Positions 3,526 through 19,396 are shown, counted from the first letter of the stretch. The stretch is DNA of 64,000 nt from Pseudogemmatithrix spongiicola (GCF_030623445.1 NZ_CP130613.1:3162001-3226000), one strand, 5' to 3'. Numbers and translations are program-made. The notes: generated by a model from the letters alone, not told the origin.

Positions 3526-4788
3526 CTATAGATAACGCCGCGGCGGGACCAACAGGGACCCGAACAAGAGACCTGCGACCAATGCCAGAATGGCACTGAG
3601 CACGGCGACCAGCGTGTCGAATCCCAGCGTGTAGTCACGCTCCATCACGAAGCTCAGCGCGCGGAAACCGACGCTGCCCGGCACGAGCAGCATGATGCCT
3701 GGGACGCGCACCAACTGCCCCGGCCGGCGCTTCCAGCGTCCGTACACGTTCGAGAGCGCCGTCATCACGAGGCTGGAAAAGAATACCGATCCGGCAAAGG
3801 TCCCGGTGGCGACGGGGCCGAGCCACCCGGAGCCGAGGCGCGTGAGGACGTAGCCGAGGATGGCCGCGCCCATCACGAGCGGGATGTCGCGGCGAGACGC
3901 CCGGAACAGCACCGCGAACGACGCGGCCGCCGCGACCATCGCAATCAGCTCGACCCACGGCGGCAAGGCCTCCGGCGTACCGGGCATCGGCGTCCAGCCG
4001 ATAGCGAGCATCAGCTGCGCGGCCGCCACCGAGCCGAAGGTGAGCTTGAGCAAGACCGTCATCGCGCCGGCGAAGCGCGTCGTGCCCGTCACGAGCTGGT
4101 TCGATGCCAACTCCGAAACCGCCGTCGTCAACGAGAGGCCCGGCATCAAGACGATCAGCGCTGCGACAATCACCGTCTGCAACGACAGCGGCGCCACGAA
4201 GTGCGCAAACGCCGTCGCCAACGCCGTTGCGACCAGCGCCGCGACGGCCTCGAACGCCGCCGCGAGATGCGGACGCGTGCCACTGAGGATCGCCAGCCAC
4301 CCGATGAGCAGGCCAATCACCGCCGCCACGGACACATCGATCCACGCCGTGCGCAGCAACCCGGCCACTGCGGCGGCGGCGAGACCGAACGCGCCCACCG
4401 TCATCAGCTGCTGCCGCGTGTCGAACGGCCGGTCCAGCGCGTGCATCGCCGCCCAGGCCTCGTCCAGCGACATCGTCCCCGCGACCACCTGCTCGGCGAT
4501 TGCGTCGAGTTTCGCCAGCGCCCCGAGCTGGATGTCGCCGAGCTCGAGGCGCAGCACCCGCGTCTCTTGCGTGGCGTTCGCGCGCGCGCCGTCGCTCAGC
4601 GAGAGCAGCAGGCCGGTGGGCGTGGACCAGATCTCCGCGCGCACGCCGATGCTCGTGGCGACGGATCGCACCGCGCCCTCGAGGCGCGAGGCAGACACGC
4701 CCACGAGATGCAGCCGTCGCGCCAGCTCCGTGAGGAAGCGGACGCGGTCGTCGAAGCTCGCGCGGTGCTCGGCGGTGTGCGTGCTCAC
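3526..4788 (-). CDS. ThrE-like threonine/serine exporter family membrane protein
   Basis: This 420-residue protein has a soluble N-terminal domain (about 1-120) and roughly ten hydrophobic segments (about 128-415). It resembles ThrE/DUF1212 exporters, which join a cytosolic DUF1212 domain to a second membrane module. Two Pro-Gly motifs mark the halves: VLMPGLSLTTAVSEL and IMLLVPGSVGFRAL. The expected role is proton-driven efflux of threonine, serine or similar small molecules. The start is GTG 4788, four bases after the stop of the upstream hydrolase gene, which suggests an operon. Substrate is inferred only from the family. Confidence 0.85.
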   Translation of the reverse strand: MSTHTAEHRASFDDRVRFLTELARRLHLVGVSASRLEGAVRSVATSIGVRAEIWSTPTGLLLSLSDGARANATQETRVLRLELGDIQLGALAKLDAIAEQVVAGTMSLDEAWAAMHALDRPFDTRQQLMTVGAFGLAAAAVAGLLRTAWIDVSVAAVIGLLIGWLAILSGTRPHLAAAFEAVAALVATALATAFAHFVAPLSLQTVIVAALIVLMPGLSLTTAVSELASNQLVTGTTRFAGAMTVLLKLTFGSVAAAQLMLAIGWTPMPGTPEALPPWVELIAMVAAAASFAVLFRASRRDIPLVMGAAILGYVLTRLGSGWLGPVATGTFAGSVFFSSLVMTALSNVYGRWKRRPGQLVRVPGIMLLVPGSVGFRALSFVMERDYTLGFDTLVAVLSAILALVAGLLFGSLLVPPRRYL

Positions 4789-4792
4789 GCGC

Positions 4793-5890
4793 TCAGGGCT
4801 TCAGCCACTTCTCGAAGAACGCCCAGACGAGGTTCCACGAGTCGATCTGCTCGGGCGAGTCCTCGCGCTCGAGCGTCTGGCGGTTCACGCGGCGGCTGAA
4901 CGTGTGCCCGACGCTCGTCGGACCCGGCGTCGGGTTCACGTAGACCTTGGTCTCCGCGAGGTCCGGCTTGCGGGCGCGCAGCGCATCGATGTACGGCTGC
5001 GACTCCACGAAGTCGGCGTCGGTGTCGTTCGTGGCGACATGCACGAGGATCGGCCGCGCGAGCGAATCGACCGAGTAGTACGGTGAGCGCTTGATGTACT
5101 CATCGCGGCGCTCGAAGGGCAGGCCGCGTAGGCCATCCTGCGTGCTGAACGAACGTTGGTAGCCGGGCCCCTTATACGAGAGGCGGAAGACCAGGTTGGT
5201 CGTGGGCACCATCGCGACGCCGGCCACGAACTTGGTCTGCGCGCCGCGCTGCAGCAGGTGGGCCGTGATGAACCCCCCGTGGCTCCAGCCCATGATGCCG
5301 ATGCGCGACGGGTCGACCTCGGGCCGCGCCTGCAGCACGGCGTACGCCGTCTCCACGTCATCGAGTTCCTTGCCGCCGTAGTCGATGGCGCGATGGAACG
5401 CTTCACCGTAGCCGGTGGAGCCGCGGTACTCCGGCGCGAGGATCACGTAACCGCGCTGCACCGCCTCGATGATGAACGGCAGGTAGTTCTGGTCCCAGTT
5501 GCCGTGCACGCCGCCGTGCACCCACACCATCGCGGCATGTCCCTTGGCGCGCGGCGTGAGGGGCGAGAACACGTACGCCGGGATCTCGAGCCCGTCGACC
5601 TGCGAGCGATACGTGATCTTTTCGTAGCGCATGACGCCGCGGCTGCGTGCGGCGAAGATGCTGTCCGTGCGGGCCTTTGCGGCCATGTGCTCGGCGTAGT
5701 CGGCGACCGGATGGTCCTCCGGCCGGTTGCTGACGTAGAGCTGGCGGGCGCGCGCCGAGTCCATCGGCACGGTGCGACGCGCCGGGGCGGGCGTGGAGGC
5801 GGCGGCCGGAGCCGGTGTGCTCGGAGCGGGGGCCGATCCGCCGGGCATGCACCCGGCGAGGCCAAGGACGGCGAGAAGGATTGTGCGCAT
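4793..5890 (-). CDS. Lipoprotein alpha/beta hydrolase, S9 prolyl-oligopeptidase-like
   Basis: This is a 365-residue lipoprotein (LGLAGC, lipid Cys 14) with a Pro/Ala-rich linker and then an alpha/beta-hydrolase domain from about residue 85. The nucleophile elbow is GWSHGG with Ser203. VHGG at 124-127 is the oxyanion-hole region, the acid is likely within NDTDAD, and the His is in SVGHTF. This is the S9 dipeptidyl-peptidase/acylaminoacyl-peptidase layout without the beta-propeller, so it could be a peptidase or an esterase. A TATAAT hexamer ends 6 nt before ATG 5890 and no Shine-Dalgarno is visible, which suggests a leaderless transcript. Confidence 0.85.
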   Translation of the reverse strand: MRTILLAVLGLAGCMPGGSAPAPSTPAPAAASTPAPARRTVPMDSARARQLYVSNRPEDHPVADYAEHMAAKARTDSIFAARSRGVMRYEKITYRSQVDGLEIPAYVFSPLTPRAKGHAAMVWVHGGVHGNWDQNYLPFIIEAVQRGYVILAPEYRGSTGYGEAFHRAIDYGGKELDDVETAYAVLQARPEVDPSRIGIMGWSHGGFITAHLLQRGAQTKFVAGVAMVPTTNLVFRLSYKGPGYQRSFSTQDGLRGLPFERRDEYIKRSPYYSVDSLARPILVHVATNDTDADFVESQPYIDALRARKPDLAETKVYVNPTPGPTSVGHTFSRRVNRQTLEREDSPEQIDSWNLVWAFFEKWLKP

Positions 5891-15865: not shown

Positions 15866-16840
15866 TCAGACGGCGACGATCCACCCCATCGCGCCGCGCT
15901 CCGCCAGCCGCGGCTGGTGCGGATGGAACATGTACCGCCCCGGCGCATCGAAGCGCATCTCGAGCATCGCGCGCTCGCCAAGCGTGAGCGGCACGACGTC
16001 CGAGTGTTCATCCGGAACGCGCCGCGTGCCCGAGCGGAACACATCGAAGGTCTGCGCGTGCAGGTGGAAGGTCGCAACCGGCTCGTCGGGGACGAGATTC
16101 AGCACGTGCAGTCGCACGAGCGCTCCGACCGGCACCTTGAGTGGATGGCGCGCGAAGAATCCCGCGACGCCGTTCCATCCATAGAGGTCGGAGCGACCGT
16201 CGTCATCAGTGTCGAAGCCGCCGAGGATGAGGACGCGCTCCTCGGCGCTCGGGCGCGGCAGCACGGGATCGACGATCAGCGCTCCGTAGAGCCCGCGCCC
16301 GAGATGCTGGGCGCTGGGCAGCAGATCGCAATGATACGGATACAGACCCGCAGGCCGCGGCGCGAACTCGTACGTGCGCGTTTCGCCGGGCGGAATCGGC
16401 TCCCAGCCGTCCTGCGTCGGCGCGTGCGCGCCATGCGTGTGCAGGTTGTGCGGATGCGGCGTGAGATTGCGCACGGTGAGCGCGAGGGTGTCGCCCTCTC
16501 GCACGCGGAGGATCTGTCCGGGTATGCGCCCGTCGAAGGTCCACGCGTCCATTTCGCGGCCGGCACCCACCTGCACACGCTGCTGCGTGATGGTGATCGT
16601 GCGCGCGACGCGGCCGGCGCGCGCGAGCGGCGGAATCGTGAGGTCATCGAGCGCGGTCGGTCCGAGCGTCGCAGGAGGTTCGACGCTGTGGCCGTACGGC
16701 CCGTGCAGCATGGTTGCGTCGTCGAGCGACGCGTCGTGACGTGCGGCGTTCCGGGAGCTCCGACGCGAGAGCATTGCGCTGACCGCGAGTGCGCCCGCGG
16801 CCCCGCCCACGCCGAACAACCACTCCCGCCGCGTCGGCAT
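15866..16840 (-). CDS. Two-domain multicopper oxidase with Tat signal
   Basis: This 324-residue protein has a twin-arginine leader (TRREWLFGVGGAAGALAVSA), so it should be exported folded with copper bound. Domain 1 has HNLHTHGAHAP and a type-1-like cluster in YPYHCDLLPSAQHLGRGLYG. Domain 2 has FHLHAQTFDV and, at the C-terminus, FHPHQPRLAERGAMGWI. The usual HCH there is HPH, so type-1 copper can only be in domain 1, as in two-domain laccases and nitrite-reductase relatives. Expected activity is oxidation of metal ions or small phenols, or a nitrite-reductase-like reaction. ATG 16840 overlaps the upstream stop (TGATG). Confidence 0.87.
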   Translation of the reverse strand: MPTRREWLFGVGGAAGALAVSAMLSRRSSRNAARHDASLDDATMLHGPYGHSVEPPATLGPTALDDLTIPPLARAGRVARTITITQQRVQVGAGREMDAWTFDGRIPGQILRVREGDTLALTVRNLTPHPHNLHTHGAHAPTQDGWEPIPPGETRTYEFAPRPAGLYPYHCDLLPSAQHLGRGLYGALIVDPVLPRPSAEERVLILGGFDTDDDGRSDLYGWNGVAGFFARHPLKVPVGALVRLHVLNLVPDEPVATFHLHAQTFDVFRSGTRRVPDEHSDVVPLTLGERAMLEMRFDAPGRYMFHPHQPRLAERGAMGWIVAV

Positions 16841-18651
16841 CAGATGCCGCTGTAGAGACTCGCAATCGTGACGGCGAGACCTACCCAGAGCGCCGCGACC
16901 GCCAGCAGGCTGCGCAGCGCCAGCCGCGCGCGTGCGGTGGGAGCGTTCGTGCGGCGCGCGCGCCGCAACGTCAGCGCGGCCGCCAGCACGAGCACTGCGA
17001 ATGCCAGCAGGCGCAGCGGCGAGAGCGGCAGCAGCGCTTGCACGCGCGCCAATCGCGGCGCGGGGCCCGGCAGCGGCAGCGCCTGCGCGGCGGCGAACAG
17101 CGAATCCCACGCGGCGGGCATCGGCACGCCGGCCGTGTCGGCGCGTACGCGATCGAACTCGCCGACGGCCGGTACCGCTGGAGCCGACTCAGGCGCCGGC
17201 ATGGTCGGCTGCGGCGGGGGAATCGGCTGCGTCTTCCAGTCCGGATACGTCACACTGTTGAGGCGCCAGATACGCAACGCGAGCGCGAGCGTCGGGGTCA
17301 GGTCGTTCTCCTCACCACCAGCGCGCCCGCTTGTGCAGCGCAGCGACGCTGGCGCCAGTGACACGTCACCGCGCTGAGCGGCGATGCAGTTGCCTTCGCT
17401 CATCGGCCCGCCGACGGACACGTCCGCCCGCCCGCTCGCCGTGATGCGGTTGTCGGCGACGCGATTCCCTTTCGCAGGCCAGAAGTTCGCGTCGGCCAAC
17501 GGCGCGACGATGACACCGTGACCCGCGTGGTGAAAGATGATGTTGTCCTCGACCACGTTCTCGCGCCCGCCGCCGAGCACGATTCCGTTGCCCCAGGCGA
17601 GCGGCGAGAGGCCCTTGCCCGGTCCGCTGCGGCTCGAGTTGTCGTGAATGAGGTTGCGGCGGATGGTCGTCGCGCGCTGCGGCGGATACAACTCGGTGTC
17701 GAGGGTGTTCGGCACGAGTCCACCGCGGTTGTTGCGCCAGATCGAGTTCACGATGTACAGCTCGTCGCCTGCGTTGGTGCCCGAGTAACCCACGGCGTTG
17801 TGCTCGCTGATGACGCGGCGCACCAGCGCGCGGCAGGGAAAGCACTGGCCGATGTAGAACCCGGCGTCGGGCGATCCGCTGGCGTAGGAGTCCTCGAACA
17901 ATCCGTCCTTCGAATCGAAGGCGTAGATGCCGTAGTCACCGTTGTTGTAGGCGGTGAGGAAGCGGCCGCGGTAGCCCGTGACGCCCGTCCAGAAGAACCC
18001 ATTGAGCGTCGCGTTGCGCGCGGTGAGGTTCTCGAGTGCCACGCCATCGGCCAAGACGTTGAACCCGTTGGGCCGGATGAACTCGCCGTCGACGATCGTC
18101 GTGTTGCGGTCGAGGCCCCGGATCACCAGCGACGGCGTGGTGACGGTGACCTCTTCTCTGTAGATGCCGGGCGCGATGAGGATGAGATCCCCGGGAACCG
18201 CCGCATCCACGGCGGCCTGAATGCTCGCGTGTTGCTCCGGCACGCGGCGCACCGTTCCGCTGGCCTGTGCCACCGCCTGCAGCTGGCCCCGCTTGCCTCC
18301 CGTGTACTCCGCGTCTCCCACGACCACGGCACCGGCCATGCCGAACCCATCCTTGGTGCCGTGGTACGAGCAGTAGAATTCGTAGACGCCGGCCGCGGCG
18401 AGCGTCACGGCCAGCTTGCTGCCCGGCGCGACGGCGGAGGTATCGATCGCCGGCCACTTCGTGGCATCGATCGGCACGATGTTGTGCGGATTGCGCCCGG
18501 CGTTCGTGAACGCGACGCCGGCCCCCACCGGAATCCGCACGACTGGTGCGTTGTAGGCGTTGTCGAGCATCTTGACCTGCGTCGCGCCCTGGGTCACAGG
18601 ATCCGAGCACGCGACGGCACTGAACACCAAGGGAGCAAGGAAGCGGCGCAT
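16840..18651 (-). CDS. Lipoprotein with cupredoxin, NosD-like beta-helix and C-terminal membrane helix
   Basis: This is a 603-residue fusion. The signal ends in SAVAC (lipid Cys 15). Residues about 24-112 are a plastocyanin-like cupredoxin with a complete type-1 copper set: His56, Cys94, His97 and Met105. Residues about 135-450 form a right-handed beta-helix of NosD/PbH1 type (IQAAVDAAVPGDLILIAPGIYREEV, then repeated NxIxxN-like rungs). A Pro-rich stretch leads to a hydrophobic segment near 555-600 and an Arg-rich turn. NosD proteins assist copper delivery to nitrous-oxide reductase, but no nos gene is nearby. It is coupled to the multicopper oxidase. Its ATG (18651) overlaps the divergent ATG. 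Confidence 0.85.
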   Translation of the reverse strand: MRRFLAPLVFSAVACSDPVTQGATQVKMLDNAYNAPVVRIPVGAGVAFTNAGRNPHNIVPIDATKWPAIDTSAVAPGSKLAVTLAAAGVYEFYCSYHGTKDGFGMAGAVVVGDAEYTGGKRGQLQAVAQASGTVRRVPEQHASIQAAVDAAVPGDLILIAPGIYREEVTVTTPSLVIRGLDRNTTIVDGEFIRPNGFNVLADGVALENLTARNATLNGFFWTGVTGYRGRFLTAYNNGDYGIYAFDSKDGLFEDSYASGSPDAGFYIGQCFPCRALVRRVISEHNAVGYSGTNAGDELYIVNSIWRNNRGGLVPNTLDTELYPPQRATTIRRNLIHDNSSRSGPGKGLSPLAWGNGIVLGGGRENVVEDNIIFHHAGHGVIVAPLADANFWPAKGNRVADNRITASGRADVSVGGPMSEGNCIAAQRGDVSLAPASLRCTSGRAGGEENDLTPTLALALRIWRLNSVTYPDWKTQPIPPPQPTMPAPESAPAVPAVGEFDRVRADTAGVPMPAAWDSLFAAAQALPLPGPAPRLARVQALLPLSPLRLLAFAVLVLAAALTLRRARRTNAPTARARLALRSLLAVAALWVGLAVTIASLYSGI

Positions 18652-19396
18652 GCGCGCGAATCTCGCGGATTCTCTTTGCCTTGTCCATCGCCTCGCCTGC
18701 GCGGCGCTGCTCGGGATTCCTGGACTCGCAGCGGCGCAGGAAGACTGGCAGGTCGTGCAGCAGTCGGCCCTGTGGGTGAACACCTTCGTCGACCACGCCG
18801 TCAGCGATCGGGCCGCCCTCTGGTTCGATGGGCACTGGCGGCGCATGGATCTCGGGGGGCCACCGCAGCAAGTCCTGCTCCGGCCCGGCGTGCAGGTCAC
18901 GCTCTCGCCGCGCGTCCGGGCGGGCGGTGGTTATGCCTATATCGCCACCGCGCCCTACGGCGAGTCGCCCAACCCGCGGCCCGTGCGCGAGCACCGCCTC
19001 TGGCAGCAGGTCTCCGCGTCACACACGTTGCTCAACCTTTCGCTGTCGCACCGCCTCCGAGTGGAACAGCGGTGGAGCGCACCTGTTCTCGCCGACGACG
19101 ACCTCGGCCCCCTTCGCTACCAGCAGCGCCTCCGCTACGCCGTGCGGGCGCAGCGGCCGGTTGGCGTGCGAACCTATGGCTTTGCGGCCAATGAGTTCTT
19201 CCTGCCCGTCGGCCACTCCGAAGGCGCGCAGCGCCGCCTGCAGAATCGCGCGCAACTCGGGCTTGGCCTGCCGCTCGATGACCGGCAACGCATCGAGTTC
19301 GGCTATCTGCACCAATGGAATCGCATCACGCCGCGCGAGACGCACGAGTTCAATCACACGCTTGTGCTCTCGTGGGTGTGGACGCAGCGGCCCTAG
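18650..19396 (+). CDS. DUF2490-like secreted beta-barrel protein
   Basis: This 248-residue exported protein has a signal peptide over residues 1-30 (CAALLGIPGLAAAQ). The mature part has the DUF2490 pattern: WQQVSASHTLL, LSLSHRLRVEQRW, LRYQQRLRYAVR and FNHTLVLSWVW at the end, all amphipathic strands suited to an outer-membrane barrel. Function is unknown. It starts at ATG 18650 with AGGGAG and AAGGAAG upstream. That ribosome-binding site lies inside the first codons of the divergent cupredoxin gene, and the two ATGs overlap in CATG. Shared regulation with the copper genes is likely. Confidence 0.8.
   Translation: MRANLADSLCLVHRLACAALLGIPGLAAAQEDWQVVQQSALWVNTFVDHAVSDRAALWFDGHWRRMDLGGPPQQVLLRPGVQVTLSPRVRAGGGYAYIATAPYGESPNPRPVREHRLWQQVSASHTLLNLSLSHRLRVEQRWSAPVLADDDLGPLRYQQRLRYAVRAQRPVGVRTYGFAANEFFLPVGHSEGAQRRLQNRAQLGLGLPLDDRQRIEFGYLHQWNRITPRETHEFNHTLVLSWVWTQRP

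Follow-up and report, generated by a model that had tools for sequence, protein, structure and literature searches.

A pair of adjoining genes in Pseudogemmatithrix spongiicola, one for a lipoprotein that fuses a cupredoxin to a beta-helix and a membrane tail and the other for a Tat-exported two-domain multicopper oxidase (MCO), looks like a conserved and apparently undescribed extracytoplasmic copper redox module. The pair occurs in at least five bacterial groups, and it is on account of this recurrence that it looks like a real module; no description of it was found in the literature searched, which consisted of open-licence papers. In the reading favored here, with a probability of about one half, the cupredoxin would exchange electrons with the MCO, and the beta-helix would dock the enzyme at the membrane. 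The locus lies in a stretch of 64,000 nucleotides, referred to below as the window, within a complete genome consisting of a single 3.26 Mb contig. Its features, in window coordinates, are as follows.

15866..16840, minus strand: Tat-exported two-domain MCO, type C, with the type-1 (T1) copper in domain 1 (324 aa, ATG at 16840)
16325..16330, minus strand: C171–D172 of the MCO, the T1 Cys followed by Asp at a type-3 (T3) His position (HCD; D172 at 16325–16327; from the sequence)
16838..16842, minus strand: TGATG overlap of the fusion stop and the MCO start (from the sequence)
16840..18651, minus strand: cupredoxin–beta-helix–transmembrane lipoprotein (603 aa, ATG at 18651)
16846..17019, minus strand: C-terminal membrane tail, two long helices, residues 545–567 and 573–602 (AlphaFold model)
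17314..18261, minus strand: right-handed beta-helix, about residues 131–446 (PF13229 and AlphaFold model)
18307..18594, minus strand: type-1 cupredoxin domain, residues 20–115, ligands H56/C94/H97/M105 (PF00127)
18607..18651, minus strand: lipoprotein signal MRRFLAPLVFSAVAC, lipobox Cys = Cys15 (from the sequence)
18650..19396, plus strand: divergent gene for a DUF2490 predicted outer-membrane barrel protein (PF10677)

The fusion and MCO genes are coupled by the TGATG overlap, as the original prediction stated, and near-touching junctions are also seen in two other loci (L047 and L027). At the opposite end of the fusion gene, its ATG (18651, minus strand) and that of the DUF2490 gene (18650, plus strand) have a CATG palindrome in common (18649–18652), so that no intergenic space is left for a promoter. 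In near relatives these two genes are separated by a gap, unlike the arrangement in the window. Rfam, promoter and terminator scans gave nothing useful.

The predicted lipoprotein, with its four cupredoxin ligands, beta-helix and membrane tail, was borne out by the coordinates, the Pfam matches and an AlphaFold model alike. The lipobox Cys15 is invariant in 12 Gemmatimonadales sequences. The cupredoxin passes the PF00127 Copper-bind model (32.9 bits; cut-off 21.2), is plastocyanin-like in both profile and fold searches, and shows no variation in its four ligands across 56 aligned relatives. By this profile and by the His–Cys–His–Met set, it is a type-1 domain of the plastocyanin/azurin family and is predicted to bind copper. 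The helix that follows passes the PF13229 Beta_helix model (49.8 bits; cut-off 25.9) and carries a C270xPC273 pair, both cysteines of which are invariant in 56 aligned sequences. The AlphaFold model, in which the cupredoxin, the beta-helix and the two long C-terminal helices can all be recognized, has a mean pLDDT of 91.5 and high confidence nearly throughout, the signal peptide excepted. The tail is a two-helix form that stays under the PLDc_N model and occupies the slot that is PLDc_N-like in other lineages. No NCBIfam model was passed by either the fusion or the MCO.

The beta-helix had been described as NosD-like, and this was upheld for the fold but not for the family. In the fold search the helix matched the epimerase AlgE4 (Z 31), other epimerases and lyases (Z 23–31) and the NosD subunit of NosDFY (7o0y_A; Z 26.9), although a fold in common with epimerases or NosD leaves the function of the helix unfixed. 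Like the fusion, NosD is an extracytoplasmic right-handed beta-helix found beside a copper enzyme; unlike NosD, the fusion possesses a T1 cupredoxin and has no NosF, NosY or NosL adjoining it. Identity with NosD was rejected on the scores of the fusion against TIGR04247 (28.9 bits; cut-off 300) and PF05048 (22.9 bits; cut-off 23.6). Residues 144–386 also resemble the TIGR03805 parallel beta-helix proteins, at 84.7 bits and thus under the cut-off of 141.5.

The original prediction also held that nitrous-oxide reductase was absent, which is true of the window but not of the genome. A nos cluster occurs elsewhere on the chromosome (L111 5180–11077; G000 contig C1 about 2314179–2320076), with a Sec-dependent NosZ that scores 923 bits in a profile search (cut-off 625) and a NosD that scores 397.8 bits against TIGR04247. 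Beside them lie an ABC ATPase and a permease-like protein, forming a NosF/NosY-like pair, and a NosL-like protein, all three labels being based on position and sequence. Given this second locus, the organism does have nitrous-oxide reductase, and the NosD that goes with it is a protein other than the fusion.

The MCO begins with the twin-arginine sequence MPTRREWLF and scores far over the cut-offs of Cu-oxidase_3 and Cu-oxidase_2 (PF07732 and PF07731), in agreement with the exported two-domain oxidase proposed at the outset; a predicted model and a fold search also support the two cupredoxin domains. With ligand roles assigned by analogy with known MCOs, the T1 site lies in domain 1 and is formed by H131, C171 and H179, none of which varies among 34 sequences; its axial residue is Leu. 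Three HxH pairs, at 134/136, 259/261 and 306/308, occur in addition to H170, and domain 2 contains HPH but no HCH. Type C two-domain MCOs are defined by a T1 site in the N-terminal domain only (PMC13151041). The window MCO is, judged by its sequence, of type C, putatively a trimer that binds copper and reduces O2. The missing second HCH motif, to which the original prediction drew attention, is therefore real but expected, being part of the definition of the type rather than a special trait.

The nearest structures to the MCO by sequence and fold are 3gdc and 7rab, followed by 9cck. Its fold, its domain-1 T1 ligands and the HxH motifs in both domains are common to type C enzymes, of which 3gdc is the nearest solved example. 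It differs from these relatives by a subfamily motif, FHPH(Q/E)…GAMGW, and by the HCD that replaces HCH in most Gemmatimonadota. The motif, in the form FHPH(Q/E)...G(A/S)xGW, was present in all 34 MCOs from fusion-bearing genomes, whereas 23 related MCOs from genomes without the fusion have FHAH instead. In the MCO tree, a single clade for the fusion-linked enzymes was not rejected (p-AU 0.31), yet it appeared in only 6% of bootstrap trees, and monophyly is therefore not claimed. With HCD, the trinuclear cluster of the window MCO has seven His, and Asp172 takes the position of the eighth ligand, a replacement that the original prediction does not mention and that may weaken O2 reduction. HCD was found in most Gemmatimonadota copies (the window, L021, L022, L026, L027, L112–L115 and L138), with G063 and G146 as exceptions; the other fusion-linked MCOs examined, outside this phylum, have HCH and thus His as the eighth ligand.

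A resemblance to NirK is limited to the two-domain fold and the T1 site in domain 1. The catalytic residue of NirK is Asp98, which precedes the T2 His, and its position is occupied here by His134, part of an invariant HxH; the MCO also has the paired HxH motifs expected of an MCO cluster. NirK identity was rejected on these grounds and on its TIGR02376 score (83.9 bits; cut-off 296.3). In one near relative (L020), the gene 3′ of the MCO codes for a membrane protein that bears the motif YCTVCRTG and may be DUF3179-like.

When one genome per species was scanned, 277 loci proved to encode a relative of the fusion, and both cupredoxin and helix were present in all of the best 80. These 80 span Gemmatimonadota, Myxococcota, Actinomycetota (Acidimicrobiia and Nitriliruptorales), Chloroflexi, Leptospiraceae, Gammaproteobacteria and Pelagibacteraceae. 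Of the 49 loci compared outside Pelagibacter, 31 have the MCO next to the fusion, while some others stop at a contig edge; the pairing was found in Gemmatimonadota, Myxococcota, Actinomycetota, Leptospiraceae and Gammaproteobacteria. Mapped onto the fusion tree, the presence of the MCO needs seven changes, so that the pairing is neither the accident of one clade nor fixed. Genes flanking the two-gene unit differ among lineages. SCO1/SenC-like proteins are encoded 3′ of the MCO in three loci (L061, confirmed by Pfam; L081 and L096, judged by eye). In L029 and L026 it is followed by one or two extra cupredoxins.

The architecture of the fusion varies as well. Actinobacterial and Chloroflexi fusions end in a PLDc_N-like segment (by Pfam in L035, by eye in the others), while in Pelagibacter, Leptospira, Gammaproteobacteria and second paralogues of Gemmatimonadota this part consists of one or two small separate genes after the fusion. 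A plasmid collection yielded relatives of the helix and MCOs of other kinds, but not one cupredoxin-helix fusion; the helix relatives on Streptomyces and haloarchaeal plasmids have no cupredoxin domain, and the next-nearest MCO family (FHAH) sits on plasmids where its neighbors are ZIP transporters, P-type ATPases and ArsR regulators.

Further evidence for a functional unit comes from co-occurrence, and the conserved pairing of fusion and oxidase that the original prediction proposed as a check was found in all 13 MCO-positive genomes of each of two groups. Among 395 Gemmatimonadota genomes, the MCO subfamily occurs in 13, every one of which also has the fusion; the fusion itself is present in 14, with one further genome (G603) encoding a helix-only protein. 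The two genes adjoin in eleven of the 13, one pair is interrupted by a contig end (G527), and in G057 the two genes are on different contigs. A Fisher test gives about 2e-23, a value inflated by kinship, which the test ignores, and within the order the comparison is 9/9 versus 0/142. In the second group, the class containing G164 (hereafter the Acidimicrobiia class), 13 of 198 genomes encode the MCO, with a helix protein adjacent in all 13; the FHPH motif could be read in 11, the MCOs of G236 and G359 being cut by contig ends. A fourteenth match, in G183, is only an apparent exception, for it carries FHAH and belongs to the other family. Six of these 13 genomes encode the cupredoxin apart from the helix, in a lipoprotein-like gene that directly precedes the helix gene; the cupredoxin is kept in all six cases where it has split off. 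The sampled genomes are often incomplete and related to one another, so these p-values are indicative only. As a separate observation, the neighbors of the helix-only gene of G603 (L194) have start sequences resembling those of the window genes at 3526–4788 and 4793–5890, which have no adjoining helix gene in the window.

The reverse dependence does not hold. The original prediction would have counted wide occurrence of the fusion without the oxidase against a system, and such occurrence is what was found: in all six Pelagibacteraceae genomes tested, in Chloroflexi and in many genomes of the Acidimicrobiia class. No sampled genome had the MCO subfamily but lacked the fusion, so that the link is one-sided rather than refuted. 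Where the lipoprotein lacks this MCO, its cupredoxin must have another partner. Streamlined marine bacteria are among those with the cupredoxin-helix protein but no such MCO (L034–L074, which include Pelagibacteraceae, and L195 and L196, from low-GC genomes of the Acidimicrobiia class of about 0.6–1.1 Mb), and in Pelagibacteraceae a PLDc_N-like gene follows the cupredoxin-helix gene. A paper on SAR11 mentions an uncharacterized plastocyanin-like gene, which could be this one or a different one (PMC12636525).

The DUF2490 gene fared differently. Its identity and overlapping start were as predicted (PF10677, 137 bits, E 7.9e-40), but only the closest relatives (L021/L207, L022/L206 and L027) have it next to the fusion; in L025 some 3 kb separate the two, and it was not detected in the remaining loci compared. 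The barrel protein was dropped as a core partner and is probably a lineage-restricted neighbor.

How might such a pair work? In the electron-exchange reading, the lipid and the C-terminal helices would tether the plastocyanin-like T1 cupredoxin and the long beta-helix to the cytoplasmic membrane, and the Tat-exported type C MCO would dock on the lipoprotein. Electrons would then pass from the cupredoxin to the T1 copper in domain 1 of the MCO, and from there to the multi-histidine copper cluster, where O2 or some other small oxidant would be reduced. We infer the role of docking scaffold for the beta-helix from its position and from the analogy with NosD, which has the same fold. The best independent hint of electron exchange is 9cck of Nitrosopumilus maritimus, a two-domain MCO fused to a C-terminal plastocyanin-like cupredoxin: the window MCO matches its first part (E 9e-40) and the window cupredoxin profile matches its C-terminal domain (E 9e-14). 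In 9cck these parts form one polypeptide, whereas the window has two genes, with a beta-helix, a lipid anchor and a membrane tail added. Counting against electron exchange are the unlinked genes of G057, the T3 Asp of the window MCO and the frequency of the lipoprotein without the MCO.

That last point could also suggest that the two genes are chance neighbors with no joint function, an idea that deserves hardly any credence given a pairing in five groups and a partner for every MCO-positive genome in the two sampled ones. An unlikely but more substantial alternative is copper loading, in which the lipoprotein takes up copper (supplied by SCO1 in some lineages) and transfers it into the MCO, much as NosD and NosL serve NosZ. 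The structural closeness of NosD to the helix, the SCO1-like proteins adjoining the MCO in three loci and the one-sided dependence of the MCO on the lipoprotein all argue for it, and there is precedent in the MCO CutO, whose maturation, according to PMC8456105, requires CutF, an accessory protein of the same operon. Against these points, the unit lacks adjoining NosF/NosY ABC subunits or NosL in a genome that encodes a true NosD elsewhere, and the lipoprotein is kept where such an MCO is absent. Moreover, the T1 site of the fusion is complete and invariant, as is typical of electron carriers rather than of chaperones.

The ZIP, P-type ATPase and ArsR surroundings of the FHAH family on plasmids would fit a role in detoxification, the MCO oxidizing Cu(I) or another metal ion while the cupredoxin buffers copper. 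This appears improbable for the pair itself, beside which no recurrent efflux pump or metal regulator was found, its flanks varying by lineage, and the plasmid collection held no cupredoxin-helix fusion. Still less probable is a part in envelope polysaccharide chemistry, where the helix would bind a glycan and the MCO would act on the bound substrate; the AlgE4, epimerase and lyase matches point that way, but the beta-helix fold is common, implies no function by itself and is found in NosD too.

Beyond the electron-exchange reading, a wider scenario can be offered tentatively, as one that is possible though on the doubtful side. Here, a widespread cupredoxin/beta-helix/PLDc_N-like module would act alone in SAR11 and the Acidimicrobiia class and elsewhere would have gained a dedicated type C MCO, in Gemmatimonadota one with the T3 His-to-Asp change, whose redox couple may differ from the usual O2/phenol one.

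To our knowledge, few two-domain MCOs have a known physiological partner. A membrane-tethered blue-copper partner with a beta-helix would give them a concrete pair for electron transfer or copper loading, and the Asp at the type-3 site is a natural variant on which MCO mechanism could be studied. The family likewise provides a starting point for understanding the cupredoxin lipoprotein of SAR11 and other streamlined marine bacteria.
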